Origin: a virus
Reading direction: 5' to 3' (one strand)
DNA: 56,442 nt
Virus record (IMG/VR): IMGVR_UViG_3300022866_000008
Location: 1 to 56,442 of that record
The translations under genes were made by a program, and so were the position numbers. This document shows positions 1 to 52,792 of the stretch, piece by piece. The notes below the pieces were generated by a model. That model saw only the letters and a list, made by a program, of their open reading frames with translations, was not told the origin of the DNA and searched no databases. How positions within the stretch are numbered: position 1 is the first letter of the stretch; the number at the start of each line of letters is the position of its first letter.

Positions 1-99
1 GTGATGATTCTCTTTATAACCCGATATGTCTAAAGGATTATTTTTTCTATTAGATATAATGCTGTTATACCATCTTGTATATTTGTTATTCTTAAACAT
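1..99 (-). CDS. HNH homing endonuclease, N-terminal part (runs off left edge)
   Basis: The frame is open from an ATG at 99 to the window edge and gives 33 residues. They begin MFKNNKYTRWYNSI and end GYKENHH. This matches the N-terminal signature of phage HNH homing endonucleases, where a KYT.WYNSII segment leads to a G(Y)..KHH motif that opens the HNH nuclease fold. The catalytic part lies outside the window. There is no Shine-Dalgarno sequence; a late-type element GATAAATA ends five bases before the ATG. The gene overlaps the end of a 21-codon stub of another gene (92-157), so it seems to have inserted there. The family call rests on the short N-terminus only. Confidence 0.6.
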   Translation of the reverse strand, partial: MFKNNKYTRWYNSIISNRKNNPLDISGYKENHH

Positions 100-157
100 A
101 CAAGTATTTATCAAACTTTGGATCAAACCTACCGGTAACTAAAATTATTTTGCGCAT
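92..157 (-). pseudogene. Cytidylyltransferase-like N-terminal stub cut at its active-site motif
   Basis: This short frame encodes 21 residues starting MRKIILVTGRFDP. RfaE/GlpT-cytidylyltransferase-like nucleotidyltransferases of phages and bacteria start almost identically (KxxLVTGxFDPxHxGH). Here the similarity stops just after FDP, exactly where the catalytic HxGH should follow, and the frame runs into the promoter and start of the HNH gene. I infer a sugar-nucleotide cytidylyltransferase gene interrupted by the endonuclease. It has its own late element, CATAAATA, five bases before the ATG, and follows the FkbM methyltransferase gene by 27 bases. The rest of the gene, if kept, would lie left of the window. 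Confidence 0.45.
105..112 (-). promoter_or_regulatory. Late promoter element abutting the HNH gene start
   Basis: The minus strand reads GATAAATA, then five bases, then ATG at 99. It resembles the T4 late -10 element TATAAATA. The same GATAAATACTTGTATG context recurs at the gp13 start (18477-18492). Spacing predicts transcription starting at the AUG. Confidence 0.6.
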
Positions 158-162
158 AAAGT

Positions 163-170
163 TATTTATG
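163..170 (-). promoter_or_regulatory. Late promoter element abutting the cytidylyltransferase stub
   Basis: The minus strand reads CATAAATA, five bases, then ATG at 157. No Shine-Dalgarno sequence is present. It has the same architecture as eleven other gene starts in the window. Confidence 0.55.
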
Positions 171-184
171 TACGCAGTTAATAC

Positions 185-808
185 CTACCAGCCGAAAATG
201 TAATCTTTTCTAACGCTGGTTAATTCTATTGCACCTAGCGACTTAAGATATTCGCCTGCTTGCTTAAACTTTGCATGTTGTTCAACAATTAAAATAGGTT
301 TATATTTTAATATTGTTTCTGTAGCACCTTTAAGTACTTGGAGTTCGTAGGTTTCACAATCGAGTTTTATCATTCCAAATTTTGGAAGATTTAAATCATC
401 TAATTTTTTAATTAAAATACTACCAGTTCCGAGCGAATCTTTTTTAATATAACTTGCGCCAATGTTTTCATGATCGAAAAACATATCAACAGTATTGTTT
501 TCCTCGCCCAGCGCAAAGTTGTACAAATCAACGTTTAGCCCTTTAACATTTAGTTCTAAACATTCGTAGACTTCGTTAATTGGTTCAAATGCAATTACTT
601 TATTAAACCGTTCAGCTAGATGCTTTGCCCAAAGTCCTACATTGGCTCCTACATCAACAACTAGATCAAAGTCAGTTACATATTTGTATGCTGCATCTCT
701 TACGTCATCTTGATATTGTGCAGGTCCGCCTTTTTTAATACGTTTAGCAATTAACCCTTCAAAATGTTCGTCGCAATCGGGCATCCAATATTCGTAAACT
801 TTTTTCAT
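185..808 (-). CDS. FkbM-family SAM-dependent methyltransferase
   Basis: This is a 207-residue protein with a class I methyltransferase motif I at about residues 49-60 (LVVDVGANVGLW). An acidic strand-2 end (IAFEP, about 75) and an IKLDCETYE segment follow, as in the FkbM family. Relatives O-methylate sugars and natural products using S-adenosylmethionine, and phage copies usually sit with glycan genes. Here a glycosyltransferase-like gene lies directly upstream (2-base gap) and a cytidylyltransferase stub directly downstream, which supports a role in sugar modification. An AAGG Shine-Dalgarno sequence precedes the ATG, and an ATAAATA sequence lies 34 bases upstream inside the preceding gene. 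The acceptor is unknown. Confidence 0.8.
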   Translation of the reverse strand: MKKVYEYWMPDCDEHFEGLIAKRIKKGGPAQYQDDVRDAAYKYVTDFDLVVDVGANVGLWAKHLAERFNKVIAFEPINEVYECLELNVKGLNVDLYNFALGEENNTVDMFFDHENIGASYIKKDSLGTGSILIKKLDDLNLPKFGMIKLDCETYELQVLKGATETILKYKPILIVEQHAKFKQAGEYLKSLGAIELTSVRKDYIFGW

Positions 809-810
809 CT

Positions 811-1443
811 TTATACCTTGTATTTGTTGTATTCTACAAGATATTTATCTATGGTTTTCTGTTCGCCTTTGAGAGTTAAAAATACCCCATTGGTTTTATT
901 TTTTCCACTGTTTATCCATTGTTGTCCTACTGGAGAAAAATTATAATCAGTTGACATTTGCCCAAGAATTTTTTGATCTCTTCCCCACTTCCATTCTTCA
1001 ACAGGAATACTAGTTAACAACTCTGCATACCGTTTTCTAAAATCAGTATTGCCAAAAGATACTAAACATGCTAGCCATCTTGTTGATTTATGGTGCTGCA
1101 TTACGTACTGTTTTGTAAATAATGTTTTAAATTCAGCTTCGGTAAAACTTCTTGTGCATATCGTATCAGTATCTACTACAATTAGGGATTCACTATTTGG
1201 AATCTTTGATGCTGCAAGAAACCTAGCAGCCTGCAAATAAGAAATTTTAGATTCGTCATTTAAAAAAGAGATGTTTTCAGTTGTATATGAAACAAAATCT
1301 AATTCTTTTGCATTTATTGGGTTAACTATATGACATCTTAGTTTAATCCACGGATTGTTATAATGTATAGATTGTAATAATGCAATCCCCCAATCGTCAT
1401 AATAAGATTGGTCGCACCCAATTAAAATACTATAGTGACGCAT
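811..1443 (-). CDS. Putative GT-A type glycosyltransferase
   Basis: The 210-residue protein begins with a beta-alpha pattern typical of nucleotide-sugar glycosyltransferases (YSILIGCDQSYYDDWGIALL). It carries a DTD motif at residues 91-93 after hydrophobic residues (LIVVDTDT), matching the metal-binding DxD of GT-A enzymes such as family 8. I infer sugar transfer from a nucleotide sugar; donor and acceptor cannot be read. It overlaps the end of uvsY by 14 bases and has an AGGA Shine-Dalgarno sequence inside uvsY, so it is probably co-transcribed with the recombination genes. FkbM follows at once. Confidence 0.55.
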   Translation of the reverse strand: MRHYSILIGCDQSYYDDWGIALLQSIHYNNPWIKLRCHIVNPINAKELDFVSYTTENISFLNDESKISYLQAARFLAASKIPNSESLIVVDTDTICTRSFTEAEFKTLFTKQYVMQHHKSTRWLACLVSFGNTDFRKRYAELLTSIPVEEWKWGRDQKILGQMSTDYNFSPVGQQWINSGKNKTNGVFLTLKGEQKTIDKYLVEYNKYKV

Positions 1444-1885
1444 CTTCTAATCCTGATACTCGTAATTTAACAATGTTGCTTAGATGCCATTGTTTCTGAT
1501 CAAGTGCTTTAATAATGCCCAACCACTTGTTACGTAATAGGGCAAAATCGTTGATAATTTTTTCAAAGTCTACAACGTCAGCTTCACCTTCTACGAACTT
1601 TTCACAGTCCCTAGAAGATAAAGCTCGTTGATAATTTTCAAGATACTTGCGAAAATATTGACTACGAAGTCTACGAAGTTCAATGTGTAAGTACTCAAGG
1701 ATACCTTCAATCTCTTGAAGTTGATTAAAGCGGTTTTCTACGATGCCGGGCATTTGCGAACTTGCTTTCTCAATGTTTCCCGCTATGCGGACATCTTGTT
1801 TTGCATGAATTAATTCAGCTTCATAATAAGCCACAGCATCGGGAATATTGCTTATATCTTTACTAACCTTGTGGTACCAGTTCAT
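1430..1885 (-). CDS. uvsY: UvsY-like recombination mediator
   Basis: This is a 151-residue, largely helical charged protein (T4 UvsY has 137). The central FEKIINDFALLRNKWLGIIKAL and the closing helix ending near NIVKLR follow the layout of UvsY in aquatic T4-like phages. UvsY loads UvsX recombinase on single-stranded DNA coated with gp32. The gene order gp32, uvsX, small gene, uvsY supports the call, because all three partners are adjacent and co-directional. The start has a GAGG Shine-Dalgarno sequence. Sequence similarity to T4 UvsY itself is weak, so the call relies on pattern plus context. Confidence 0.72.
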   Translation of the reverse strand: MNWYHKVSKDISNIPDAVAYYEAELIHAKQDVRIAGNIEKASSQMPGIVENRFNQLQEIEGILEYLHIELRRLRSQYFRKYLENYQRALSSRDCEKFVEGEADVVDFEKIINDFALLRNKWLGIIKALDQKQWHLSNIVKLRVSGLEDASL

Positions 1886-2116
1886 TTAATCCTCGTAATC
1901 TTCTTCGTCTTGTTCTTCGATTTCTTCACCGTCTACTGCATATTCAATAGCCTGATCTAGATATGGATCTACGCCCATTAAACTTTCTAGTACGCTTTCT
2001 TTAATCCCATGATCTAGCAAAGCGTTTACAAAATCTGCTGCAACATCTTTTCTTGCTTTCTCAGGGATATGTTCAATAACAATAGTCCAAATATCCGTAA
2101 TTAAATCTTCTTTCAT
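1886..2116 (-). CDS. Conserved small acidic protein between uvsX and uvsY
   Basis: The 76-residue protein is mainly helical and ends in a strongly acidic tail (GEEIEEQDEEDYED). It overlaps uvsX by 4 bases and abuts uvsY, so the three are translationally coupled. A GGAG Shine-Dalgarno sequence lies before the ATG inside uvsX. I do not recognise a catalytic motif. Position suggests a helper of recombination or replication, but that is inference. The acidic tail could mimic DNA or contact basic partners. Confidence 0.75.
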   Translation of the reverse strand: MKEDLITDIWTIVIEHIPEKARKDVAADFVNALLDHGIKESVLESLMGVDPYLDQAIEYAVDGEEIEEQDEEDYED

Positions 2117-3192
2117 TCAGTAATCTCCGTTTCAGGTTCAACAATAGTAGTTATCTCTGAATCGGATTTTTCGCCATGTTTCGAAATGTCTGCCATAATA
2201 ACATCGAGACCTTTCTTTTCATTGCGTTCCCACGGCTTACGGAACTGTTTGATAATTTCGCCATCACTGGTTATGTATACTAGGCTGTTACCTTCTTTCT
2301 TGAGCATCCCTTTAGCTTCGAACAAGTCGACTAATCCACTATATGGACTCATACCTGTTTCATAAGGAATCTCAACCTGTACACTTTCAAACGGCTTTGC
2401 ATAACGTGTTTTCATAATCTTACAAGCTGCACGAATACCTTGCACAGTTGAAGTTTTGTTACCGGCTGCATCAAGTTTCAACTTTAACTTGCGCATAGCG
2501 ACAACAATTGAACTTGCGTAGATAAAGCCTTGGCCGCCACTGATTTTATCATCCGGATCAAACATATCTTGTGATGCGTATGTGTGATTAGTACATACCA
2601 TACCAATGTTGTAAGCACCAAACATATTAACACAGTTACGAACAAGTGCGGTTAGTGCCTTAGGCTTACGGCCCATATCACCTTTCATATCACCTGCTTG
2701 GAATTGATTAACATCAGTCGGAGTCAACAACATGCCCAAGCTGTCAACGATAAACAATACTTTAGGACGATCTAGTTCATCCATTGTTTTGTACTCTGAA
2801 ATAAACTCTGTGATAGTCTTTGCTACATCGTCAATCATAGCCATGTTAAGTTTTAGCAACTTATCTGGACTCGTATCAACACCAAGAGCATGTAGCCATT
2901 TTTCATCAAGCGCATTCTCTGTATCAATCAAGATAGGATAGATGCCTTGTGCTTGTGCGTTCTTAACTAGATTGCCCGAACAGATAAAAGATTTACCTGC
3001 ACCAGATTCCCCAGCAAATACTGTAACCTTGCCTAGTGGAATGCCTCGATCAAAGTGTCCACTGATAAGATAGTTCAATGCGTAGTTGTTTGTACTAACC
3101 CAATCTGTTGGGTCGTTAAAGCCAATACTTAAACCTTCGATTGATTTAGTGATTGACTTTCTAAATTTAGAAATATCAAATGCTTTTGCCAT
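2113..3192 (-). CDS. uvsX: UvsX RecA-like recombinase
   Basis: The 359-residue protein has a Walker A motif GESGAGKSF at residues 61-69 and a Walker B strand VLFIVDSLGML near residue 145-155, with the RecA-core order. It ends in an acidic low-complexity tail (SEITTIVEPETEITE). It matches T4 UvsX (391 residues) in length and layout. UvsX forms filaments on single-stranded DNA and drives strand exchange for recombination-dependent replication and repair. The partners gp32 and UvsY flank it. An AGGGA Shine-Dalgarno sequence precedes the ATG, and a terminator hairpin separates it from gp32. Confidence 0.95.
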   Translation of the reverse strand: MAKAFDISKFRKSITKSIEGLSIGFNDPTDWVSTNNYALNYLISGHFDRGIPLGKVTVFAGESGAGKSFICSGNLVKNAQAQGIYPILIDTENALDEKWLHALGVDTSPDKLLKLNMAMIDDVAKTITEFISEYKTMDELDRPKVLFIVDSLGMLLTPTDVNQFQAGDMKGDMGRKPKALTALVRNCVNMFGAYNIGMVCTNHTYASQDMFDPDDKISGGQGFIYASSIVVAMRKLKLKLDAAGNKTSTVQGIRAACKIMKTRYAKPFESVQVEIPYETGMSPYSGLVDLFEAKGMLKKEGNSLVYITSDGEIIKQFRKPWERNEKKGLDVIMADISKHGEKSDSEITTIVEPETEITE

Positions 3193-3212
3193 ATTAGTCC
3201 CTGTAAATGAAG

Positions 3213-3237
3213 AAGAGTGGGAACCTGTCCCACTCTT
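3213..3237 (-). terminator. Terminator between gene 32 and uvsX
   Basis: A perfect 10-base stem (AAGAGTGGGA/TCCCACTCTT) with a 5-base loop lies 10 bases after the gene 32 stop, followed by a pyrimidine-rich CTTC run. It would end or attenuate transcription from the gene 32 promoter. Confidence 0.7.
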
Positions 3238-3246
3238 TTATGTTGC

Positions 3247-4251: not shown

Positions 4252-4312
4252 TTTTGTATGCCTCCTATAGCCTAAAATAAAAATGTTGTATATGCCTTAA
4301 TGCACATAAGCT

Positions 4313-4420: not shown

Positions 4421-6160
4421 TTACATACTGTACATGCCTGATAGTGCTTTAATACGAGCTAGCTCTGGATTCTCTGCTGGTTCTGGAGCTTGTTGTTGCG
4501 GCGCCATTCTTTCAGCCATCTTACGAGCTACTGTTTCTGCCTGCTCACCAAACTTCTTACCTACCATAGTGCAAACGCCTTCTGGGCCTTTGGGAAATGT
4601 GCCTGAATCTTTATCATAAAAGCTGTGCATAAACTCAGCTAATTCTTGTACGTTCATCTTGCCACTATGTTCTTCCGGCGATTGTTCTTCCGATTCCTGT
4701 GGGACTTCTTCTGGCGCAGTTTCTTCACCCCCTTGGTCTGTCGCCGGCTCACCGCCCACTGGTTCTGGTTGAAAATCACCAAAATCTAATACCTCTAACA
4801 CTTCTGGAGCATTGGCTTCCAGCCATACTTGTACTAGGCCTCTTACATCTGCTTCCGGATCTTCTTTAGATTGCGTCTTAATTTCTTCTTCTAATCGTGG
4901 ATCATCTATGATGCCTTTAAGACTTTCAATTGCATTAGAACCGTCTACGCCTGCGGGGAATGCCTGGCTAACTAACTCTTGTAATTGTTGTGCTGCTGCT
5001 GCCTGTTCTTCTTCATCTTGGCTTTGTATTGCGCTTTCTTCGCCTAAATTCATAGCCCATTGTTCAAACTTTGCAAATGGGTCATAGCGGTCTGCGTTGA
5101 AATCCTCGTCTTCAGTTTGGATTTCTTCTTGTGTCATGGCGACTATGTCGTCGTAGCCTAGTTCACTTTCTTTCATTAAACGATACAGTACAGGAAATAC
5201 TGCGGCCATATCTTCTTTGAAATTCTTCACTGTAAATTGATCTTTAAATTGTTCTGCAATTTCTTGCGGAACTTCCATAGGTTGCTGTGCCTGGAAACTT
5301 TCTTTGTAAGCCTCATAGTGGCCTTGTTTTGATAGTGCTTTTATTTGCTCACGTAATCCGTTAAGTGCTTGTGTACTACGCTCAACAACACTGTTCGTGT
5401 CGCTGTTCATTAGATCATTGCGTACAACATAATTGCCAAAGCTCTTTAATTGTGCAATCTCTTCACTCATCTTAATGATGCTTTCACCAATGGCATCGTA
5501 CGGTAAGCCACCGTTAGCCACATGGCGTTGCATAGCACGGGCGCCTGCTAAGTGAATGAATGGATATTTAAATCTTTCACCGTCTGCGTTTTCTACAAAC
5601 AGGCCAGCGATATTACGACTTCTGGCACCCGGTGCCATATCGTCATTTAACTTTTGACTGTGTTTAACAATCAATCGTGTATTTTCTAATTTTTGGTAAC
5701 TAACGCTTTTAGTACCGTACATTGTGCTTTCTGCCATAACGCCTTCTCCGACTGGAACTGAATTTTGTGCTTCTTGTTTAGGTTGAGCATTACGAGTTAA
5801 AAATTTGTAATCTCTTTTATCTAGGTTGTCTTTGGCAATATCTCTAGTGTCAAAGTTTAGTAATCTACGCTTGGCAAACATACGTAATTCTTTTAGGAAT
5901 CCGTACCACCTGTCTTTTTGCTCTGCGTCCATTGATTCTGTAATTCCGTGACTGAAGTAAATCTTCATGGAATTATCTTCTGCTAGACTAATGCTAACGT
6001 GACCAATAGGAGTTTCACCTTCCATATAGTCAAAATCAAAGAAACGTGCTTCTTGTGGATTTATAGTAATTTCGCCAATTTCTGTACCTAATTTTAGACC
6101 AGAGAATCTGCTACGAATTTTGTAGAATAAATCTGTTGCGATGTTGTTAGTTGCGTCCAT
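4421..6160 (-). CDS. Large conserved protein of unknown function
   Basis: I do not recognise this 579-residue protein. The first 130 residues are beta-rich, then helical and basic. The middle is charged and helical, and about residues 440-515 are rich in Glu, Pro and Gln. A compact C-terminal segment near 515-560 (FYDKDSGTFPKGPEGV, KKFGEQAETVARKM) recalls short modules in other aquatic T4-like proteins. I chose the ATG at 6160 over an upstream TTG at 6175 because the element GATAAATA ends five bases before this ATG, the same spacing as other starts here. The gene follows terminase, whose stop overlaps the promoter. A packaging or virion role is possible but unproven. Confidence 0.75.
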   Translation of the reverse strand: MDATNNIATDLFYKIRSRFSGLKLGTEIGEITINPQEARFFDFDYMEGETPIGHVSISLAEDNSMKIYFSHGITESMDAEQKDRWYGFLKELRMFAKRRLLNFDTRDIAKDNLDKRDYKFLTRNAQPKQEAQNSVPVGEGVMAESTMYGTKSVSYQKLENTRLIVKHSQKLNDDMAPGARSRNIAGLFVENADGERFKYPFIHLAGARAMQRHVANGGLPYDAIGESIIKMSEEIAQLKSFGNYVVRNDLMNSDTNSVVERSTQALNGLREQIKALSKQGHYEAYKESFQAQQPMEVPQEIAEQFKDQFTVKNFKEDMAAVFPVLYRLMKESELGYDDIVAMTQEEIQTEDEDFNADRYDPFAKFEQWAMNLGEESAIQSQDEEEQAAAAQQLQELVSQAFPAGVDGSNAIESLKGIIDDPRLEEEIKTQSKEDPEADVRGLVQVWLEANAPEVLEVLDFGDFQPEPVGGEPATDQGGEETAPEEVPQESEEQSPEEHSGKMNVQELAEFMHSFYDKDSGTFPKGPEGVCTMVGKKFGEQAETVARKMAERMAPQQQAPEPAENPELARIKALSGMYSM

Positions 6161-6165: not shown

Positions 6166-6173
6166 TATTTATC
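6166..6173 (-). promoter_or_regulatory. Late promoter element abutting the 579-residue protein start
   Basis: The minus strand reads GATAAATA, five bases, then ATG at 6160, overlapping the stop codon of the terminase gene. No Shine-Dalgarno sequence is visible. It decides the start of the downstream gene. Confidence 0.6.
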
Positions 6174-7763: not shown

Positions 7764-7771
7764 TATTTACT
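7764..7771 (-). promoter_or_regulatory. Late promoter element abutting the terminase start
   Basis: The minus strand reads AGTAAATA, five bases, then ATG at 7758, with no Shine-Dalgarno sequence. It lies immediately after the upstream terminator, so terminase should start a new transcript here. Confidence 0.6.
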
Positions 7772-7772: not shown

Positions 7773-7800
7773 AAAAAAATAGGCTCCGAAGAGCCTATTT
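7773..7800 (-). terminator. Rho-independent terminator after the 146-residue protein gene
   Basis: A perfect 10-base stem (AAATAGGCTC/GAGCCTATTT) with a short CGAA-type loop runs into seven T residues on the minus strand. It sits 16 bases after the stop at 7816 and just before the terminase promoter. Confidence 0.85.
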
Positions 7801-8972: not shown

Positions 8973-9559
8973 TATACTTTTCCTTTAAGTGGATCTGGAT
9001 TACTAATCTTGCTCATAGGAGCCATAGATCCAGCTTTGTCTTGTTTTGCCTTAGGTAATTTGTATTCCCCAACACCGTCTTCTTTCTTACGGGCTTTAGC
9101 CGTTTTCTCTAAATCTTTTAAGAAACTCTTGTTAAAATCATCCCCAAAATAATCTTTGTGTTTAATTTTTTCATTTTTGTACTCTGCTTCATCTAGTACT
9201 GCTTCACCGCTAGGGTCTAGGTCAAATGTAGCATGTTCTGCTTCAGCTGGGTCGCCGCCGTTACGCACTCTGAAATTAGATTCAGGCACTAAGTGGCCAA
9301 CGTGTACAGCAAGTTCGGGTGCAGTAATTGGATATTCACAAACCACTTCGAATGTGTACACTTCCATGTTTGCAAGTTCTGGGAAATCCAACGGAATCGC
9401 TTGAGCAGATGTTTTAGACTTTTCAATGATTGTTGGATTAGCTGCCCCGAGCATTTCCTTTAATTTTTTTTCAAAATCCTTAGGCAATTCGCCTGCGACT
9501 TTTACTCTAAAAGGGTATGCTTTTTTGCTTTCAGCAAGATATTCTTTAAAAGTTTTCAT
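8972..9559 (-). CDS. Conserved T4-like protein with FKEYLAE N-terminus, unknown
   Basis: The 195-residue protein begins MKTFKEYLAESKK, an N-terminal motif seen on many small aquatic T4-like phage proteins and probably a peptide recognised during assembly. A beta-alpha-beta domain spans about residues 15-110 (FRVKVAGELP, VYTFEVVCEYP). The remainder is Lys/Asp-rich and likely disordered. No enzymatic motif is visible. The element ACTAAATA ends five bases before the ATG; an AAGGA lies too far upstream to serve as a ribosome site. It follows gp16 by 8 bases and is coupled to the acidic repeat gene. Confidence 0.65.
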   Translation of the reverse strand: MKTFKEYLAESKKAYPFRVKVAGELPKDFEKKLKEMLGAANPTIIEKSKTSAQAIPLDFPELANMEVYTFEVVCEYPITAPELAVHVGHLVPESNFRVRNGGDPAEAEHATFDLDPSGEAVLDEAEYKNEKIKHKDYFGDDFNKSFLKDLEKTAKARKKEDGVGEYKLPKAKQDKAGSMAPMSKISNPDPLKGKV

Positions 9560-9564: not shown

Positions 9565-9572
9565 TATTTAGT
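9565..9572 (-). promoter_or_regulatory. Late promoter element abutting the 195-residue protein start
   Basis: The minus strand reads ACTAAATA, five bases, then ATG at 9559, and overlaps the end of gp16. Confidence 0.5.
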
Positions 9573-10049: not shown

Positions 10050-10057
10050 TACTTATC
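10050..10057 (-). promoter_or_regulatory. Late promoter element variant abutting gp16 start
   Basis: The minus strand reads GATAAGTA, five bases, then ATG at 10044. The same A-to-G variant occurs at the Nudix gene start (24159) and, as GCTAAGTA, at the HNH gene start (16118). Confidence 0.5.
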
Positions 10058-11944: not shown

Positions 11945-11952
11945 TATTTATG
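11945..11952 (-). promoter_or_regulatory. Late promoter element abutting the tube-fold protein start
   Basis: The minus strand reads CATAAATA, five bases, then ATG at 11939, immediately after the gp19 terminator. Confidence 0.6.
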
Positions 11953-11956: not shown

Positions 11957-11987
11957 AAAAAAAGCCCGGAATGCGTCCGAGCTTTTT
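11957..11987 (-). terminator. Terminator after tail tube gene 19
   Basis: An imperfect stem (AAAAAGC-x-CGGA / TCCG-x-GCTTTTT) with one mismatch and a 5-base loop is followed by a T run on the minus strand, 16 bases after the gp19 stop. Confidence 0.75.
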
Positions 11988-16058: not shown

Positions 16059-16066
16059 TATTTACC
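16059..16066 (-). promoter_or_regulatory. Late promoter element with leader for sheath gene 18
   Basis: The minus strand reads GGTAAATA 34 bases before the gp18 ATG, with an AGGAG site between. This is the conventional leadered layout, in contrast to the abutting elements. Confidence 0.55.
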
Positions 16067-16117: not shown

Positions 16118-16125
16118 GCTAAGTA
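16118..16125 (+). promoter_or_regulatory. Late promoter element variant abutting the HNH gene start
   Basis: The plus strand reads GCTAAGTA, five T residues, then ATG at 16131. It lies 51 bases from the divergent gp18 element. Confidence 0.45.
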
Positions 16126-18484: not shown

Positions 18485-18505
18485 TATTTATCGTTACGGT
18501 AAATA
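18485..18505. promoter_or_regulatory. Back-to-back late promoters for gp13 and gp14
   Basis: Within 21 bases there is GATAAATA on the minus strand (18485-18492, five bases from the gp13 ATG) and GGTAAATA on the plus strand (18498-18505, four bases from the gp14 ATG). Only five bases separate them. Neither gene has a Shine-Dalgarno sequence. Confidence 0.65.
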
Positions 18506-18509: not shown

Positions 18510-19775
18510 ATGCCAAGATTAAGCCTCTACCGCGCCCAAAAGGGCAATGATTTTAAATTCATCGATAAAACCGTTTGGGAAATGTTCCAAGTCGGCGGAG
18601 TCGATGTACTTGTTCACAAGTATATAGGACCTGGTTCTAGCAGTGAAGTTACTCCGACAACTCCTGCATATACCACAGACAATCCTTTACAAATACAAGA
18701 TTTACTATTCTTAGAAAATAGAGATCGTAAGTATGATCCGGATATATATAGGCTGCGAGGTGTTTATAATATTCAAGACATTGACTTTAACCTAAGTCAG
18801 TTTGGTCTATTTCTACAAAATGACACAGTATTCATGACGTTTCATATTAACGATACTGTCGAAAAACTTGGACGTAAAATTATGTCGGGCGATGTAATTG
18901 AGCTACCGCACTTAAAAGACGAGTATGCACTTAACGATTTGCAGTTTGCTCTAAAACGTTTTTACGTTGTTGAGGAAGTCAATCGTGCAGCGGAAGGATA
19001 TTCAGTAACTTGGTATCCGCACCTATATCGTGCTAAATGTAAACCACTAGTAGACAGTCAAGAATTTAAAGACATTCTCAACGGTCTCGCTGACGGAGAT
19101 GGTAACGATACTACCACTACCTTACGTGACATTATGTCTACGTATGAAAAAGAAATGCAGATTACCCAAGCAGTTCTTAACCAAGCAGAAGCAGATGCTC
19201 CTAAGAGCGGATACGATACTACTAAATTCTGGACTGTTCAACTGGATGAAAACGGAAATGCTGATCTAGTAACTGTTGACAATGAAACTATTGATGCTAG
19301 CTTGCAAACGCAGGCCACTGATGCTAATGGCAACTTGTTGTTTGATGCCAACAACGACCCAATATATGTTGGGCCAACAGCTAGCACAATGTTACAAACT
19401 GCCAAGGGCAATGGCTACCAAGGTTACCTAACAGGAGATGGCATTCCTTCAAACGGCGCGCCGTTTACTGCTGGCATTGCATTTCCACTGTCAGGCGTAG
19501 ACGGACAGTATTGCCTAAGAAAAGATTACATGCCTAACAGACTGTTTAGGTTCAACGGAACAAGATGGGTTAAGATGGAAGATATACAGCGTATGACTAT
19601 GAACAATCTAGGTGCTAGCGATACCGGAGTTGGCGATACATTTGAAGGTAAAGATGTTCGTCAAACACAGAAAGGTACATTTATTAACAATACAAATACA
19701 GCAGTCATCGACGGGCATACTGTTGAAGAGAAACAAAGCCTTAGCAAGGCGCTTAGACCACAGGCGGATGTATAA
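18510..19775 (+). CDS. 14: Neck protein gp14, enlarged
   Basis: The 421-residue protein (T4 gp14 has 256) starts MPRLSLYRAQKGNDFKF, matching the SLYR...NDFKF N-terminus of aquatic T4-like gp14. The body has the DPDIYRLRGVYNIQD and ALKRFYVVEEVNRA segments. An insertion near 333-360 ends in RLFRFNGTRWVKMED, a fibre-like module also found in gp15 and gp18. gp14 completes the neck with gp13. I chose the ATG at 18510 because it follows the late element and begins the conserved N-terminus. The stop overlaps the start of a homing endonuclease as TAATG. Confidence 0.85.
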   Translation: MPRLSLYRAQKGNDFKFIDKTVWEMFQVGGVDVLVHKYIGPGSSSEVTPTTPAYTTDNPLQIQDLLFLENRDRKYDPDIYRLRGVYNIQDIDFNLSQFGLFLQNDTVFMTFHINDTVEKLGRKIMSGDVIELPHLKDEYALNDLQFALKRFYVVEEVNRAAEGYSVTWYPHLYRAKCKPLVDSQEFKDILNGLADGDGNDTTTTLRDIMSTYEKEMQITQAVLNQAEADAPKSGYDTTKFWTVQLDENGNADLVTVDNETIDASLQTQATDANGNLLFDANNDPIYVGPTASTMLQTAKGNGYQGYLTGDGIPSNGAPFTAGIAFPLSGVDGQYCLRKDYMPNRLFRFNGTRWVKMEDIQRMTMNNLGASDTGVGDTFEGKDVRQTQKGTFINNTNTAVIDGHTVEEKQSLSKALRPQADV

Positions 19776-20323
19776 TGTATATCTATAAATTTATACATAC
19801 CGAAAGCGGAAGAGCGTATATAGGGCAAACTATACAAAATCCAAATCGGCGTCGGCTTGAACATATTGCCGATAGTAGGAATACTCCAAGAACATATCAC
19901 TTTCACAATGCTTTAAAAAAATACGGATCAGAATCATTTATATTTGAAGTTATTGCAGAAGCGAAATCTTTGGAAGAATTAAACTTGTTAGAGGAAAAAT
20001 ATGTGAATCAATACGATTCTATTAACAATGGGTTTAATATTCGACAAGCAGGTGGCAACAAGCTACATTCTGAAGAGAGTAAACAACGGATGAGTGATGC
20101 TCAAAAAGCTGCTCATTTACAGAGAAGATTAGAAGGAAGAGATAGCGGATGGAAAAGGAAAGATGGCGGGCCTATGAAAGGAAAAATCTGTTCCGAAGAA
20201 AATAAACAAAAAAAACGAGAAGCACATTTAAAAGCACAGCACTATACTGGAAAAACTTGGAAAGTTATAGATGGTAAAAGAGTGTGGTTAACTAAGGAGG
20301 CTGTGGCTAACGCTACTGTATAA
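19775..20323 (+). CDS. GIY-YIG homing endonuclease inserted between gp14 and gp15
   Basis: The 182-residue protein opens MYIYKFIHTESGRAYIGQTI, the GIY-YIG variant YIYKF...AYIGQT. RRRLEH with the catalytic Arg follows near 26-30 and a Glu near 70 (LNLLEEKYV), giving an apparently intact nuclease. The C-terminal half has two NUMOD3-type DNA-binding motifs (SEESKQRMSDAQKAA, SEENKQKKREAH) and a KTWKVIDGKRVW end. Its ATG overlaps the gp14 stop (TAATG) and its stop overlaps the damaged gp15 start (TAATC). This is classic intergenic homing between two essential tail genes. Confidence 0.9.
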   Translation: MYIYKFIHTESGRAYIGQTIQNPNRRRLEHIADSRNTPRTYHFHNALKKYGSESFIFEVIAEAKSLEELNLLEEKYVNQYDSINNGFNIRQAGGNKLHSEESKQRMSDAQKAAHLQRRLEGRDSGWKRKDGGPMKGKICSEENKQKKREAHLKAQHYTGKTWKVIDGKRVWLTKEAVANATV

Positions 20324-24158: not shown

Positions 24159-24166
24159 GATAAGTA
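24159..24166 (+). promoter_or_regulatory. Late promoter element variant abutting the Nudix gene start
   Basis: The plus strand reads GATAAGTA, five bases, then ATG at 24172, with no Shine-Dalgarno sequence. Confidence 0.5.
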
Positions 24167-31064: not shown

Positions 31065-31892
31065 TTAACTATACGTTATTTTAACTAGGCCGCCGGCGCC
31101 AAAACTACCCCAACATGCACTTGATGAGTCAGTTGCGTGTCCCGCGCCCCCGCCACCTGGGAACGCCGCGTGTGCAGAGCAACAGGCTAAGTTCCCAACA
31201 CATCGATGTTTTCCGCCTATGCCATGAGGAGCAGTAAATGGTCCACTTGGTCCACCTGCTACTGAGAATGCATCTGCACAACAGTTATACTGCCTGTTAA
31301 ATGATCCCGTAGTTCCTCTAAATTCAATATCGCCGCCATAAGTTGGTGAGTTGCAGCTATGGTTGACCCAACCTGCGTTGTAGTTACCTCTGTCACATTG
31401 AGTATTACCAATATGACAGTTATAACAGTTTGATGTCATATCCCAGCTAGTTGAGCCGCCCATGCCGCCAATTGCACAGAAATTACTTAGGCCAGTTCCC
31501 TGAACCCAACTAGTACATCCATGACGGCAGTTCATGTTACATGAACAGCAGCAGCTACAGTTTGACGAACCAGCAGCACACACAGTATACCCAGTACCAT
31601 CTCCAAATCCATGCACTGATTTAGTCAATGTCTTTGCGGTATAATTGCCGCCTGCGCCTCCTACACCGTGGTCATAGTCACCACCTGAGGAGCCGCCTGG
31701 GCCGCCTCCTGATAATATTTCAAACTTTATAGAAGTAGTTCCTGCTGGGGCTATAAATTGACAGCATCTTCCGCCGTTTTCTGGCGTCCAGTTGTTTGTA
31801 TTATATACCCATATTTCTTTAACTTCAGCAATTGCGCATTGGTGCTGTCCATTAGCATATACTATACCGTTATTTGATAATTGTACTGGCAT
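31065..31892 (-). CDS. Glycine- and cysteine-rich adhesin-like protein, copy A
   Basis: The 275-residue protein has about 22 cysteines, including clusters NCSCCCSCNMNC and NCYNCHIGNTQC, within a Gly-rich framework (GGGPGGSSGGDYDHG, FPGGGGAGH). The N-terminus QLSNNGIVYANGQ resembles the start of tail-fibre tip modules. The fold may be a Gly-rich sandwich as in T-even-like adhesins, with cysteines binding metal or forming disulphides. It is a tandem paralogue of 31908-32735, offset by 843 bases. An S74 fibre lies upstream and a possible chaperone downstream. Host receptor binding is inferred. Confidence 0.65.
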   Translation of the reverse strand: MPVQLSNNGIVYANGQHQCAIAEVKEIWVYNTNNWTPENGGRCCQFIAPAGTTSIKFEILSGGGPGGSSGGDYDHGVGGAGGNYTAKTLTKSVHGFGDGTGYTVCAAGSSNCSCCCSCNMNCRHGCTSWVQGTGLSNFCAIGGMGGSTSWDMTSNCYNCHIGNTQCDRGNYNAGWVNHSCNSPTYGGDIEFRGTTGSFNRQYNCCADAFSVAGGPSGPFTAPHGIGGKHRCVGNLACCSAHAAFPGGGGAGHATDSSSACWGSFGAGGLVKITYS

Positions 31893-31907
31893 TTTTTTTA
31901 TTTCCTC

Positions 31908-32735
31908 TTAACTATATGTTATTTTAACTAGGCCGCCGGCACCAAAGCTGCCCCAACATGCATTTGATGACATTGTTGTGTGACCTGCTCCGCCGCCACC
32001 TGGATAAGCCGCATGTGCAGAACAACAGGCTAAGTTGCCAACACATGGATGCTTTCCGCCTATGCCGTGGGCAGCACTTATTGGTCCTGATGGAGAACCT
32101 GCAACTGAGAAGTGGTCTGCACAACAGCTGTACTCTCGGTTCATAGATCCAGCTGTACCTCTAAATTCCATATCGCCGCCATAAGTCGGTGAGTTGCAGG
32201 CATTTGCCTGCCAGCTAGAGTTGTATAATCCTAGATTACACTGGACATTGCCAATGTGACAGTTATAACATTGACTCATCTTGTCCCAGATCGTTGGGCC
32301 ACCCATGCCGCCAATAGCGCAGAAATTACTTAGACCTGTTCCTTGGACCCAACCTGTGCATCCATGACGGCAGTTTACGTTACACGAACAACAGCAACTA
32401 CAATCCGATGTGCCAGCGGCGCATACTGTATATGTTTGACCATCTGTAAATCCATGCACTGATTTTTGTAGTGTTTTTGCAGTATAATTGCCGCCCTGTC
32501 CGCCTATACCATAATCATAGTCGCCGCCTGATGAGCCACCTGGCCCGCCGCCTGATAGTATTTCAAACTTTATAGAAGTAGTCCCTGTAGGCACAACCCA
32601 GCCACAACATCTGCCACCATTTGCAGGCGACCAATGGTTTCCGTTATAAACATAAACTTCTATTTTTTCTTCAATCGTACACTTATGTTGATTGTTGGAA
32701 TAAATAATACCGCAATTTGATAGTTGCACTGCCAT
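31908..32735 (-). CDS. Glycine- and cysteine-rich adhesin-like protein, copy B
   Basis: This 275-residue protein matches copy A in length and nearly all cysteine positions (DCSCCCSCNVNC, QCYNCHIGNVQC) but differs at many surface-like residues, e.g. the tail near SMNREYSC and SQCYN. Both start with the QLSN-GI-Y-N-QH motif and end FGAGGLVKITYS. Equal length and conserved cysteines show duplication followed by divergence, as expected of receptor-binding proteins under host pressure. A GAGAG ribosome site is present. The 15-base spacing places both in one operon. Confidence 0.65.
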   Translation of the reverse strand: MAVQLSNCGIIYSNNQHKCTIEEKIEVYVYNGNHWSPANGGRCCGWVVPTGTTSIKFEILSGGGPGGSSGGDYDYGIGGQGGNYTAKTLQKSVHGFTDGQTYTVCAAGTSDCSCCCSCNVNCRHGCTGWVQGTGLSNFCAIGGMGGPTIWDKMSQCYNCHIGNVQCNLGLYNSSWQANACNSPTYGGDMEFRGTAGSMNREYSCCADHFSVAGSPSGPISAAHGIGGKHPCVGNLACCSAHAAYPGGGGAGHTTMSSNACWGSFGAGGLVKITYS

Positions 32736-33980: not shown

Positions 33981-33988
33981 TATTTAGT
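33981..33988 (-). promoter_or_regulatory. Late promoter element for the S74/adhesin operon
   Basis: The minus strand reads ACTAAATA 17 bases before the ATG at 33963, overlapping the stop of the giant fibre gene. Confidence 0.45.
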
Positions 33989-41378: not shown

Positions 41379-41386
41379 TATTTATG
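41379..41386 (-). promoter_or_regulatory. Late promoter element for the 2458-residue fibre
   Basis: The minus strand reads CATAAATA 18 bases before the ATG at 41360, with CGGAG in the leader. Confidence 0.6.
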
Positions 41387-48766: not shown

Positions 48767-48787
48767 GTGCTCTCCATTTCCACCGAC

Positions 48788-48886: not shown

Positions 48887-48887
48887 T

Positions 48888-49994
48888 TTAGCCAAGTATG
48901 AGGCTAAAAACGTTACCTAAATCTTCCATAACACCTTGAGTAACTTCTTCACCACCGCCAGTAGCAATAACATATACATTACCGTCAAAACACTCTAGGT
49001 AGCTTATCTCAGTATTCCATCGAGTATCGCCTAATTCAGGAACAGCTGGGCGACTAGCATTATCACCTGCTGGGATTGCTAACGCATTTGTACCAACAAA
49101 TTTTACATATCCAATACCTCCATTATTTCTAAATGTTAATGCAGTATTAAGCAAGTTAGTAATGTCATTTTCTTGCCATTTAATGTTTTCAATATAAACA
49201 ACGCCAGTCTCTGGGTTTAGTAGTACATCTTCATTAGATTGCAAACCGCTAATCTTATTGTCAACTCCGTTAATAAATAGCTGGTCGCTAACTATAACGT
49301 TAGTTGGTCGTATAGTATCTATCTGTTGCCAGACAGGAGAACGAAGTTCGGACCAACGTTTATTGCTCTTACCTAGATCATAAGTAATATCAGTTCCCGG
49401 AATAATGCTCTGTGTAAAATCAGTGTTAACTGTTACAGTATCTAATATGTTGTCACCAACTGTAATAGTGCCGTCGGCTTGTAAATTGCCTCCCATAACA
49501 ATATTACCAGTACCGGTTCCTTGTACTGTGACATTACCATAAGTTTGTACATTTGATTCAGCTACAACTTGACCAGTGCCATTAGGGTCTAATTTAATAT
49601 TAGAATTAGCGATGCTATCAATTCGACCATTATATATTTCTAAATAATCGCTTTTTAGCTTACCCATTGAGATAACTGAATTAGGTATTGCTGTAGAAAT
49701 AATAATAGGACCAGTGTATGATCCAAACGAGCCGGCTGCATTGATTAAGATATTATCAATACGTGCTTGACCTGTAACATTTAAAACTGTAGTTTTAACA
49801 TCAGTATCAATCTGTAGATCGTATAACGGTGCATCAGTATTAATACCGATACGCAGGTTATTAACGTCAAGATATAATAAGTCGTCGTCAGTAGGAGCGT
49901 TTCTAAAGGTTAGATCGCTACCGTTGCGTAGAAGGTTTTCAGTAAGTAGCTTACCGCTGATTCTACCTAAACTGGCTGCATAAGATTCTGGCAT
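48888..49994 (-). CDS. Beta-helix-like fibre protein, paralogue of 47714-48766
   Basis: The 368-residue protein starts PESYAASLGRISGKLLTENLLRNGSDL, close to the paralogue's GRISGPLLKANLIRDG. It continues NNLRIGINTDAPLYDLQI, TYDLGKSNKRWSELRS and ends with an ELGDTRWNTEISYLECFDG module. It is likely a fibre or connector protein. CGGAG precedes the ATG and AGTAAATA lies 23 bases upstream, so it starts a new late transcript that continues through the giant 1859-residue fibre gene. Confidence 0.7.
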   Translation of the reverse strand: MPESYAASLGRISGKLLTENLLRNGSDLTFRNAPTDDDLLYLDVNNLRIGINTDAPLYDLQIDTDVKTTVLNVTGQARIDNILINAAGSFGSYTGPIIISTAIPNSVISMGKLKSDYLEIYNGRIDSIANSNIKLDPNGTGQVVAESNVQTYGNVTVQGTGTGNIVMGGNLQADGTITVGDNILDTVTVNTDFTQSIIPGTDITYDLGKSNKRWSELRSPVWQQIDTIRPTNVIVSDQLFINGVDNKISGLQSNEDVLLNPETGVVYIENIKWQENDITNLLNTALTFRNNGGIGYVKFVGTNALAIPAGDNASRPAVPELGDTRWNTEISYLECFDGNVYVIATGGGEEVTQGVMEDLGNVFSLILG

Positions 49995-50017
49995 TACATA
50001 TCTCCGTTCGATATGTA

Positions 50018-50025
50018 TATTTACT
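50018..50025 (-). promoter_or_regulatory. Late promoter element before the 368-residue fibre
   Basis: The minus strand reads AGTAAATA 23 bases before the ATG at 49994, with CGGAG in the leader. Confidence 0.5.
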
Positions 50026-50035
50026 CTAAATCTAG

Positions 50036-50548
50036 TTAGTTAGCAAAGCCGTAATAGACTGTAACGTACTTGCCGCCCGGGATAGCACTGGTAAATTCGA
50101 TTTCAGTGTTGCCGTTGATCAAGTTATAGTTAGTAACAGAAATTTGCATAACGTTTTCTACTAGAACAATAAGATTATCTGCACTAGATGGTGCTATATC
50201 AAATGGTGGGTTAAGAGTATAAGTAGTTTCGACATCGTTGCCAGGGCCTAATGTTTCTTTAGTAATTGCAGTTGCACCCGGACCTCGTACAATTTCCCAT
50301 ACTCCTGCAATAAGAGCTTCTAAGCTGTTAGTGTCTAAGTTGTAACGAATTGTACCGTCGGCAAATTCAGCGCCACTAATGCCGCCTGGATAACGTACAA
50401 GTGTTTCGTTAGGACGTTGTGCAGTTGTTCCCTGTGGCAATCTTAACCCACCAGTTAGTCCCATTACTGCACGACCAAATTGATTAGTGAATAGAGTTTG
50501 GTCTCTAATACTAAACTTTGAAATATTTTTTTGTTTTAGAAATTTCAT
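50036..50548 (-). CDS. Fibre-like structural protein with GLRLPQGTTAQRP module
   Basis: The 170-residue protein begins MKFLKQKNISKFSIRDQ and has the fibre module GGLRLPQGTTAQRP ... GTIRYNLDTNSLEALIAGVWE, a start-of-tip pattern found in many aquatic phage fibres. The closing half (TTYTLNPPFDIAP, VTVYYGFAN) is beta-rich. It is co-directional and 1 base from the 124-residue gene. Function is virion structural, exact place unknown. Confidence 0.65.
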   Translation of the reverse strand: MKFLKQKNISKFSIRDQTLFTNQFGRAVMGLTGGLRLPQGTTAQRPNETLVRYPGGISGAEFADGTIRYNLDTNSLEALIAGVWEIVRGPGATAITKETLGPGNDVETTYTLNPPFDIAPSSADNLIVLVENVMQISVTNYNLINGNTEIEFTSAIPGGKYVTVYYGFAN

Positions 50549-50549
50549 A

Positions 50550-50924
50550 TTATACCGGCAATGAACTTACTGTTACTGCGATTAAGTCTGCAACATCTGC
50601 GCCTACATAAATTGTATCGTTTGCATCTAACACTATTCTTTCTTCTGAAAAGAAAACAGTTTCGCCTGCTGGAATAATCAAGTTGCTAACAATCCTGTTA
50701 TAATTTTGATTGCCAATTCCAGCACGAGCAAACCAAATATTAACTGTAACTGCATTAGCTGTTTCGTCAGTTAGTGTTACATCACCAATATTACATAATG
50801 CAATAGTTGTTATAGCATTCACTTGCCCAGTCCCGCCACTAGCTCCGTTAGTAGTGCTAACAAAAATAGGAAGTCCTGGAGATGTAAGTGCTCTTGTTAC
50901 ATCAATCAATGTACTTGTAATCAT
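50550..50924 (-). CDS. Small beta-sandwich virion protein
   Basis: The 124-residue protein shares the small domain pattern of 33643-33963 and 47374-47706 (AITTIALCNIGDVTLTDE, NLIIPAGETVFFSEERIVLDA). It probably forms an Ig-like decoration. An AAAGAGA ribosome site is present. No catalytic residues. Confidence 0.6.
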   Translation of the reverse strand: MITSTLIDVTRALTSPGLPIFVSTTNGASGGTGQVNAITTIALCNIGDVTLTDETANAVTVNIWFARAGIGNQNYNRIVSNLIIPAGETVFFSEERIVLDANDTIYVGADVADLIAVTVSSLPV

Positions 50925-50934
50925 AGTTGTCTCT

Positions 50935-52029
50935 TTAAAATATCATGCTAAAAACAAGTGCCTTGTTTTTGCTTATTAATTCGCCAGTTCGGTGATTAGT
51001 GCTTGCACTATCGTTTACATAGTAAACACCGCTAGTTCCTAATCCCGGGTCGCCTGCTCGAATTAATGTTGCCCCAGAAACAAAAGCAGGATCACTAGAT
51101 ATTTGATCTAGTTGTAATGCATAATTTGTTTGAAGCTTTCCAGTACTGCCGGCATCAAATCGAGCAGTGTTGATAAAAATATTTTGATCCGATACACCGT
51201 TGGGCGTTCTTACTTCAAAATTTACCCCGTCGATCTCAATACCATTCAGTCCTTTGAGTCCAACTAAAAATCTATCTGCAAAAAACTGAGCCGTTAGCGT
51301 AGTATCCACTACAATAGATACAGAGCTTTCATTAATTAATTGACCAACAGTTGCAGTAGCAAATGCAAGCGAGCCTGCTGTATCTGTATTATTAGGAGTA
51401 ACATCGGCGTCAGCAATAATTACTCTAGTGTTATCTTTAAGAATTTGAAATGTTGGATTATTTTGAATTGCATCATCAACATATTTTTTGTTTGTTAACA
51501 CATCGTCGTGTGTAACTTGATCTTCATAGCTAGTAGTACCAGATACTTTAACAACTCCTGTTCCCTGACCAATCAATGTCAAGTCTCCGGCGTCTGTTAT
51601 ACTATCTGTAATTATTTGTCTTAATTTTAAACGACTGTTTTGGAATGTATAAGCGTCTTCGGCGCCGACTAGTTTCCATCCGCCTGCGGTTGCTCCTAGT
51701 TCTAAACTTGGAAATGTCTGTGCTGTTGGTATAGCAATATTCTCATCCCAAAGTAAAGAAGCGTCATCAGCTGAACCTCGATCAATTCGGATTCCGGAAA
51801 TAATTAATGATACTCCGTCGCCTCCTTCACCTTTGTTTAGCGTGATAACGTTGTCTTCAATTTCTAATTGTGTTGCAGCAACATAGACAGTTTCCCCTTC
51901 AACTAGTAATCCGCCAGTTACAATAACCGTACCTGAAGGTCCAGTATCTAGAGTAATTGTACCTCCGGATACTGAATCTCTAATGGCTTGTATATTATAA
52001 TCGCCGTTGACTCTTAAAAACTGTCCCAT
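50935..52029 (-). CDS. Fibre-like structural protein (364 residues)
   Basis: The protein begins MGQFLRVNGDYNIQAIRD. It has LEIEDNVITLNKGEGG and a VTHDDVLTNKKYVDDAIQN segment, the latter being the common fibre element that precedes an alpha-helical or coiled stretch. The C-terminal part is beta-rich (SKNKALVFSMIF). AGGA precedes the start. It is part of the long structural operon and likely a tail appendage or baseplate protein. Confidence 0.65.
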   Translation of the reverse strand: MGQFLRVNGDYNIQAIRDSVSGGTITLDTGPSGTVIVTGGLLVEGETVYVAATQLEIEDNVITLNKGEGGDGVSLIISGIRIDRGSADDASLLWDENIAIPTAQTFPSLELGATAGGWKLVGAEDAYTFQNSRLKLRQIITDSITDAGDLTLIGQGTGVVKVSGTTSYEDQVTHDDVLTNKKYVDDAIQNNPTFQILKDNTRVIIADADVTPNNTDTAGSLAFATATVGQLINESSVSIVVDTTLTAQFFADRFLVGLKGLNGIEIDGVNFEVRTPNGVSDQNIFINTARFDAGSTGKLQTNYALQLDQISSDPAFVSGATLIRAGDPGLGTSGVYYVNDSASTNHRTGELISKNKALVFSMIF

Positions 52030-52043
52030 GTTGTAATCCTAAA

Positions 52044-52439
52044 TTAAACGATTGCTGTTAGTACAATGTAGTCTGCTGATGAGTCATTTTCTAAGTACCA
52101 ATTGTACTTAACGCCGTCGAAGTCTGTAGCTACACGTTTAGTAATCTTAGCAATTTGTTTGGTATTATTAAGTCCGTTTCCGCCAACATAACCAGTGATA
52201 CGCATTTCGCCGTATGCATTAGGTTCATCAGATACTACAGTTGCAGTAACATATGATGAAGTTGTACCAATGTTTCCTACTTGAGTAACTACGAAAGTTT
52301 TTGCGCCACGTTGCTTGAGAATAACACCGTCTGTTCTTAACGATGCATCAAAAAACTCAACTCTTACACCAGTAGCTGTAGTAGCACCAGTTCCGATAAC
52401 ATCAACTCCGTTTACATCTTTTCTTAATGGACGTCCCAT
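52044..52439 (-). CDS. Conserved small structural protein (MGRPL type)
   Basis: The 131-residue protein begins MGRPLRKDVNGVDVIG. It resembles small MGRPL-starting proteins common in aquatic T4-like structural clusters, of unassigned function. It is beta-rich (KTFVVTQVGNIGTTSSYVT, YNWYLENDSS). AAGGAG precedes the start, and GATAAATA lies 68 bases upstream inside the next gene. Confidence 0.65.
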   Translation of the reverse strand: MGRPLRKDVNGVDVIGTGATTATGVRVEFFDASLRTDGVILKQRGAKTFVVTQVGNIGTTSSYVTATVVSDEPNAYGEMRITGYVGGNGLNNTKQIAKITKRVATDFDGVKYNWYLENDSSADYIVLTAIV

Positions 52440-52507
52440 TTTGTTTCTCCTTAATTTGACGTTCTAGGTCTACGCAGAGGGATTCTGCATAAATCTTCTT
52501 GACTCTT

Positions 52508-52515
52508 TATTTATC
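52508..52515 (-). promoter_or_regulatory. Late promoter element before the MGRPL gene
   Basis: The minus strand reads GATAAATA 68 bases before the ATG at 52439, overlapping the stop of the 89-residue gene. It probably starts the long transcript through the fibre block. Confidence 0.5.
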
Positions 52516-52780
52516 CACGACTAAGCATTGCCATTAGCTCAATTTTTTCAACTGTGCTTAGTATTTGATTAATAGTGTCTATTTCTTTTTGTGCTTTTTC
52601 TAAATAGGCTCGACTTTTAGTTTGTCTATGCTGTACCATAATAATACTATGTTGCTTTATGCGATTTTCAATCATATGTTCTATCTGATTAACATCGTGA
52701 GTAAACATAGGAAAGCGTTTACGCCATATACTAAACTGCTCACGCATCTGTTTAAAGTCGTTGTCTGATTCTATTTGCAT
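52511..52780 (-). CDS. Small helical protein, unknown
   Basis: The 89-residue protein is helical and charged, with His/Gln-rich middle (IKQHSIIMVQHRQTKSRAY) and a coiled-coil-like end (EIDTINQILSTVEKIELM). It follows the gp23 terminator. Its start lacks a Shine-Dalgarno sequence and has CTTAAATA four bases upstream. I recognise no family. Confidence 0.6.
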   Translation of the reverse strand: MQIESDNDFKQMREQFSIWRKRFPMFTHDVNQIEHMIENRIKQHSIIMVQHRQTKSRAYLEKAQKEIDTINQILSTVEKIELMAMLSRG

Positions 52781-52784
52781 TAGG

Positions 52785-52792
52785 TATTTAAG
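52785..52792 (-). promoter_or_regulatory. Late promoter element abutting the 89-residue protein start
   Basis: The minus strand reads CTTAAATA, four bases, then ATG at 52780, directly after the gp23 terminator. Confidence 0.45.

Follow-up and report, generated by a model that had tools for sequence, protein, structure and literature searches.

Late promoter elements adjoining start codons predict leaderless late mRNAs in a lineage of T4-related jumbo phages

Late transcription in phage T4 is a textbook system, and its late promoters usually stand a good distance before the ribosome-binding site. Why, then, do elements with the T4-like core TAA(A/G)TA stand only four or five bases before the start codons of a set of genes in the IMG/VR record IMGVR_UViG_3300022866_000008, of which positions 1 to 56,442 (56,442 bases, here called the window) were analyzed? 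We consider it highly probable, from the arrangement of sequence features, that these are late promoters of the T4 type from which leaderless late mRNAs are made in a lineage of uncultivated jumbo phages. The 5' ends are predicted, and we infer from the same arrangement that gp55 uses the promoters and that ribosomes initiate in the leaderless manner. In the proposed mechanism, host RNA polymerase with a phage gp55-like sigma factor would read the elements, transcription of the genes with an adjoining element (near genes) would begin with the A of the initiating ATG, leaving a leader of 0 nt or at most 1–2 nt, and ribosomes would start on the 5'-terminal AUG without Shine–Dalgarno pairing. A second set of late genes would retain a normal leader with a Shine–Dalgarno site.

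The window is part of a jumbo phage of the T4 superfamily. A PHROGs scan of 40 of its proteins found UvsX-like and UvsY-like proteins, a single-strand binding protein, the terminase large subunit (TerL), head closure, two tail-tube-like proteins, tail sheath, the neck adaptor Ad2, the major head protein and a head protease. Among the matches listed, the nearest named relatives by TerL include PA5oct (52.7% identity), CBB (43.5%) and GAP32 (43.3%), and RaK2 does not appear there. A longer record, G001 (126,576 bases), contains the window, with a TerL 100% identical and the first four elements at identical coordinates. In IMG/VR, 332 stretches carried TerL relatives, and the best 80 of these 332 were used for locus comparisons; counts over the eight records of the clade are partly redundant, as G002 and G007 are apparently one phage. 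Genes split at the ends of 20-kb pieces were left out of all gene counts and, in comparisons of distinct upstream sequences, hits were dropped if they started past residue 12 or if no ATG lay within 12 nt.

All twelve TAA(A/G)TA elements named in the original prediction are present, ten with exactly five bases to the ATG and two (starts 52780 and 18510) with four (Table 1). It had counted about twelve genes, and ten are secure; the open reading frame (ORF) at 99 leaves the window edge and that at 157 has 21 codons, so that neither is an established gene. When TAARTA followed by the ATG of an ORF of at least 60 amino acids (aa) was counted by gap, that is, by the number of bases between element and start codon, the window gave two cases at gap 4 and eight at gap 5, while gaps 10–60 averaged 0.39 cases each. 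Counts at gaps 4 and 5 in four clade records were 3 and 10 (G001), 16 and 18 (G002), 11 and 16 (G003) and 6 and 11 (G006) over a background of 0.57–1.52 per distance, although these counts include orthologues and are not independent. TAAATA occurred at gaps 4–5 with an ORF in seven cases in the window, and each of 14 letter permutations in 0–2; the highest permutation in G002, G003 and G006 was AAATAT, which overlaps the element itself (16 versus 30 for TAAATA, 10 versus 23 and 5 versus 15, respectively). TAARTAN5ATG outnumbered the reversed pattern in all eight clade records (121 versus 35 when these redundant records are summed), and gaps 4–5 accounted for 82 of the 97 sites with a close element.

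The motif was not equally common at other distances, in permuted form or before genes with a Shine–Dalgarno site, an outcome in favor of the original prediction, which would otherwise have been refuted. TAARTA is frequent, with 89 occurrences in the window, and this is what an origin by chance in an AT-rich genome, or by wrong start calls, has in its favor; we regard the probability of either as negligible. Chance is made unlikely by the permuted and reversed motif controls and by conservation among orthologues. Wrong start calls are made unlikely by a coding signal from codon 2, third codon positions being the most variable from there onward at all six sites tested (only slightly at terL), and by starts deposited by others for Pelagibacter phage HTVC008M, described below.

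Bacterial transcription favors a pyrimidine followed by a purine at positions -1/+1, which makes the base before the start codon informative. At the 51 gap-5 sites (50 ATG, 1 GTG) this base was T in 42 and C in 9, and never A or G. Where the element was distant, a pyrimidine preceded the start in 80 of 170 genes, and where there was no element, in 430 of 955; these proportions carry a bias in that non-near starts were chosen by the best Shine–Dalgarno site, and they leave out non-near genes with less than 60 nt upstream. Taking the first ATG for all genes (and dropping those with <70 nt upstream), a pyrimidine was found in 45/45 starts at gap 5, 69/122 with a distant element and 382/822 with none. 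PMC2988020 and PMC7892883 place the T4 late box at -13 to -6 (the latter with consistent numbering, A at -12), in agreement with the spacing assumed in the original prediction, and at gap 5 this puts +1 on the first base of the start codon. The base preceding the core is A in 50–65% of elements and the next one out G in 44–49% and T in 14–19%; hence the consensus is GATAAATA and not the T4 TATAAATA, the core TAA(A/G)TA having served as the search pattern. Near and distant elements have these flanks in common.

A leaderless message would need no Shine–Dalgarno site, and the near genes show little sign of one. With the first ATG used throughout, the mean Shine–Dalgarno energy of 73 near genes was -1.65 kcal/mol, with 8% at -5 or below, next to -1.29 (8%) for shuffled near upstreams keeping the element and -2.21 (12%) for 634 internal ATGs; the mean was -5.12 (54%) for 122 genes with a distant element and -4.25 (44%) for 822 genes without one. 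Near genes as a class are no better than shuffled sequence in Shine–Dalgarno strength, and the two classes differ as groups, as had been predicted; the claim that no near gene has a site at working distance stands for the class, with exceptions among part of the orthologues of 9559 and 16131. Start codons at gaps 4–5 in the four records were 85 ATG, 2 GTG and no TTG, with 11.8, 2.6 and 3.0, respectively, expected from other gaps.

The contrast class consists of late genes with a distant element. All seven such elements of the original prediction are present, four as in Table 1 and the others at gaps 20 (24057), 36 (30221) and 68 (52439). These genes were said to carry a good AGGA-type site, which does not extend to 24057 and 30221, where only weak or distant G-rich tracts are seen by eye. 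Tail sheath orthologues had the element at 30–36 bases together with an energy of -5 or below in 22/22 distinct upstreams. Orthologues of 41360 had it at gaps 26 and 39 in their two distinct upstreams, and no element was seen within 45 nt in 2/2 distinct upstreams for 33963, in 1/1 for 49994 or in the few orthologues of 30221. Of 18 contrast genes compared, 24057 and 56428 gave no usable orthologue; 11 of the remaining 16 had an energy of -5 or below in at least 97% of distinct upstreams. That distant elements share core and flanks with the near ones, at 17–68 bases from other genes, also bears on whether TAAATA beside an ATG could be a translation element (an A/U-rich ribosome or S1 site) and no promoter at all. 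Its position at -11 to -6, the usual place of a Shine–Dalgarno site, would suit that role, which we nonetheless judge very improbable, because enrichment is absent for most of the letter permutations, the most frequent of which shares bases with the element, because at terL the element lies directly behind a terminator and because the clade has a late sigma gene.

Conservation of the gap among orthologues, a check put forward with the original prediction, held at most sites and fully at 9559 (gap 5 in 38/38 distinct upstreams), 11939 (33/33) and 16131 (28/28), as well as in the 6/6 found for 18479. At 6160 the gap was 5 in 32 of 35 distinct upstreams and 4 in the other three. Across 80 terL loci it was 5 in 63, 4 in 8 and 6 in 2, with no element in 7 (22, 7, 2 and 3, respectively, in 34 distinct upstreams); five loci without an element (L028, L029, L031, L033 and L044) share one identical upstream with an AAGGA tract instead, which looks as if promoter and Shine–Dalgarno site had swapped places. 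Elsewhere the gap varied: orthologues of 10044 had gap 4 in 23 and gap 5 in 10 of 33 distinct upstreams, the three for 52780 had gap 5 twice and gap 8 once, the three for 24172 had gap 4, gap 5 and no element, and the only distinct upstream found for 99 had gap 5. Gaps 4 and 5 are both usual, which corrects the initial emphasis on five.

A candidate sigma factor for these promoters is encoded in the clade. A T4 gp55 query matched open frames of 284–303 aa in 8/8 clade records (E 3.8e-6 to 7.6e-8), and the proteins of G001 and G003, the two scanned, scored 1.2e-75 and 1.7e-78, respectively, against the PHROG family 'sigma factor for late transcription'. The T4 gp55 search gave no match in the window, which is a fragment, or in PA5oct or CBB; PMC5259590 reports a gp55-like factor in CBB. 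A gene for ribosomal protein bS21 was found in 8/30 records, including HTVC008M (91237–91392) and the two largest clade records, G002 (L244) and G003 (L245), with no match in the window or the six other clade records. It was also present in PA5oct, Phosso, Atu_ph07, Vibrio phage 2.275 and Melnitz, all without a clear gap-5 excess, and a specific link between the arrangement and phage bS21 was rejected for this reason. Phage bS21 has been proposed to favor phage transcripts late in infection (PMC9723584). A phage IF3 gene was found in 0/10 records searched.

Among 21 named phage records, TAARTAN5ATG was in clear excess over the reversed pattern only in HTVC008M (18 versus 6). This phage had 12 TAAATA sites at gap 5 versus a background of 0.76, and in the permutation control 13 cases for TAAATA versus 6 for the highest permutation. 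Of its 198 annotated features, 100 deposited starts were checked, the leading, truncated feature of each of the two stretches used being left out; in 11 of these starts the gap was 5, in one 4 and in one 6. An energy of -5 or below was reached by 8% of 12 near starts versus 58% of the other 88, and the base before the start was T in 8, C in 3 and A in 1 of the near starts versus T 37, C 6, A 38 and G 7 in the others. The near genes encode a DNA end protector, head closure, tail tube cap, a baseplate wedge subunit, a putative tape measure and a tail completion protein, and also an oxygenase, a curli component and a cyclase. HTVC008M resembles the clade in its sharp gap-5 peak, lost Shine–Dalgarno signal, terminator-like hairpins before some sites and low-copy structural genes, and has a divergent gap-5 pair (18916, minus strand; 18943, plus strand) like that of the window. 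It differs in belonging to a distant lineage (TerL 29.8% identical) and in having near gaps that are almost all 5 (11/12).

Like T4, whose late transcription involves the gp55 sigma, TATAAATA at -13 to -6, gp33 and gp45, the clade has the core TAAATA, a late sigma of that type and late genes on both strands. T4 lacks the peak at gaps 4–5 (0 and 4 by TAARTA, 0 and 0 by ATAARTA), its elements clustering 23–29 bases upstream, and in the clade the base before ATAAATA is mostly G and not T. Histograms of T4, syn9, PA5oct and CBB showed no peak at gaps 4–5, and TAARTAN5ATG was in no clear excess over its control in PA5oct (20 versus 17), CBB (25 versus 19), GAP32 (17 versus 17) or RaK2 (15 versus 34); late promoters of CBB are given as ATAAATA in PMC5259590. 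Because these nearer relatives lack the peak, the arrangement probably arose twice.

Leaderless phage messages are themselves a known class. According to PMC3594737, Thermus phage phiYS40 has a temporal class (middle/late) of leaderless mRNAs; the clade is alike in having a class of messages that, judged by promoter type only, would lack leaders, but phiYS40 is of another lineage and host, and a shift in IF2/IF3 is reported for it. The AR9 paper notes incidentally that phage transcripts are often leaderless (PMC5312081) and a pelagimyophage study describes late-promoter prediction in that group as unsuccessful (PMC7029224). For T4-type phages, no description of late mRNAs without leaders stood among the matches listed, which comprised titles and the beginnings of abstracts, most subscription journals lying outside.

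Besides the non-independence of the four-record counts, a number of observations weigh against leaderless late messages as read here. The element fills the Shine–Dalgarno position, making the two features spatially exclusive, so that loss of the site is partly forced. An energy of -5 was reached in 0.47 (9559) and 0.61 (16131) of distinct upstreams, owing by eye to an AAGG tract that lies some 12 nt upstream of the ATG, farther than a normal site. Five of the 16 contrast genes (41360, 55771, 10861, 10493 and 3192) have no consistent Shine–Dalgarno site, and head closure (10493) has neither element nor site. The sigma matches to T4 gp55 reach only 24.6–29.3 bits, which is weak, the G001 protein had no Pfam match at 0.01 and neither it nor that of G003 had a meaningful NCBIfam match. 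Among the 11 gap-5 starts of HTVC008M, one is preceded by A.

Other adverse points concern where transcription begins. At gap 4 the base before the ATG was T in 12, G in 11, C in 7 and A in 1, a pyrimidine in 19/31 (15/28 with first-ATG starts); T4 spacing would here place +1 at the U and so calls for a shifted start, and the base pattern suggests a 1-nt leader or another start. At distant promoters no clear pyrimidine–purine start is seen at the T4 position, so that it is apparently the start codon, and not the promoter consensus, with which the pyrimidine is associated. Orthologues of 18510 have gap 7 in 7/7 distinct upstreams and not the gap 4 of the window. These last two observations, with the 14 of 97 sites at gaps 6 and 7, are what one would expect if transcription started a few bases upstream and gave very short leaders (2–5 nt) that are not truly leaderless. 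We hold this to be unlikely, given that the base just before the T4 +1 position is a pyrimidine at every gap-5 site and that gaps 4–5 predominate.

A last point against leaderless initiation is that, at 47 of the 82 gap-4/5 sites, a same-strand upstream frame of at least 80 codons ends within 60 nt, so that coupled translation from a longer message is possible there, as an addition or an alternative. In the extreme case, near genes would be translated mainly from longer polycistronic mRNAs by upstream coupling, with the nearby promoter auxiliary. The elements of 9559 and 10044 each contain, as their TAA, the codon that ends the preceding gene (head closure in the latter case), the 6160 element lies directly 3' of the TGA stop of terL, and terL of L047 and L076, without an element, has TAA directly before its ATG; coupled translation may contribute at 6160, 9559 and 10044, which lie directly behind a gene end. 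The other 35 sites speak against coupling: by strict criteria 27 have neither hairpin nor upstream frame and 8 follow a perfect hairpin (three hairpin sites also having a gene end 56–57 nt upstream), a hairpin count that is a lower bound as no mismatch or G–T pair was allowed. The terL terminator stem is kept in 31/33 distinct element-bearing upstreams, with compensatory changes, and read-through RNA should therefore be limited there. The hairpin before 11939, missed by the strict search because of a G–T pair, has counterparts at the matching place in G002, G003 and G006, and a hairpin similar to that before 52780 precedes an 89-aa gene in G002 and G003. The divergent starts 18479 and 18510, 30 bp apart and belonging to structural genes, have their elements back to back only 9 bp apart, leaving little leader room on either side, and neither they nor the divergent starts of HTVC008M have a close upstream partner. 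Coupling requires neither a 4–5-base gap nor a pyrimidine before the ATG, and we deem it improbable as the main route.

The original prediction also described the set as head completion, packaging and neck genes, which fits the window cluster and not every near gene of the clade. Thirty proteins whose genes follow a near element (15 from G003, 12 from G002 and 3 from G001) were scanned against PHROG; 15 had no family, 8 only families of unknown function and 7 a named function, not mainly a structural one. For the window genes, a plausible purpose would be low, matched output of low-copy parts (terminase, neck and adaptors), with capsid, sheath and tube using strong leaders. A bolder and doubtful extension is that, in some T4-type lineages, promoter position alone splits late genes into high-copy ones with leaders and strong Shine–Dalgarno sites and low-copy ones (terminase, neck, completion and baseplate) that are leaderless, with stoichiometry fixed at initiation; such a system might be favored by ribosomes altered late in infection, perhaps with phage-encoded bS21, and would have arisen at least twice, in the jumbo clade and in the HTVC008M lineage.

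Table 1 Late elements and terminators in the window (gap, bases between element and start codon).
Feature	Coordinates	Strand	Gap	Start	Remarks
Late element TAAATA	105..110	-	5	99	ORF leaves window edge, putative gene
Late element TAAATA	163..168	-	5	157	ORF of only 21 codons, doubtful gene
Late element TAAATA	6166..6171	-	5	6160	Virion structural protein, phrog_13484
Late element TAAATA	7764..7769	-	5	7758	Terminase large subunit
Late element TAAATA	9565..9570	-	5	9559	Virion structural protein, phrog_14802
Late element TAAGTA	10050..10055	-	5	10044	
Late element TAAATA	11945..11950	-	5	11939	Tail-tube-like protein
Late element TAAGTA	16120..16125	+	5	16131	111 aa; weak HNH_3 match below Pfam cut-off
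Late element TAAATA	18485..18490	-	5	18479	Head–tail adaptor Ad2; divergent pair
Late element TAAATA	18500..18505	+	4	18510	Virion structural protein, phrog_11591; divergent pair
Late element TAAGTA	24161..24166	+	5	24172	125 aa
Late element TAAATA	52785..52790	-	4	52780	89 aa
Distant late element	16059..16064	-	34	16024	Tail sheath; strong Shine–Dalgarno site; contrast class
Distant late element	33981..33986	-	17	33963	Shine–Dalgarno site; contrast class
Distant late element	41379..41384	-	18	41360	Shine–Dalgarno site; contrast class
Distant late element	50018..50023	-	23	49994	Shine–Dalgarno site; contrast class
Intrinsic terminator	7773..7800	-			10-bp stem, TTCG loop, T run; ends 3 bases before terL element
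Terminator-like hairpin and T run	11962..11984	-			Directly upstream of 11939 promoter; by eye
Terminator-like hairpin and T run	52798..52821	-			After major head protein gene, directly upstream of 52780 promoter; by eye

Three further observations were made in the window. At the record end (1–168), two short overlapping ORFs with starts at 157 and 99 each have their own gap-5 element, and the 21-codon ORF may be a relic or encode a short peptide. A homing endonuclease-like gene (19775–20323), with the GIY-YIG family among its matches, lies between structural genes. Two neighboring 275-aa genes (31065–32735) are closely alike by eye around 31489 and 32332, perhaps through tandem duplication.

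If the elements do direct leaderless late transcription, the conservation of such a class in related phages would mean a further level of control, recognizable from the sequence by itself, and would aid the prediction of start sites and promoters in aquatic phages. As HTVC008M has a cultured host, Pelagibacter HTCC1062, leaderless initiation would become testable in that pair.

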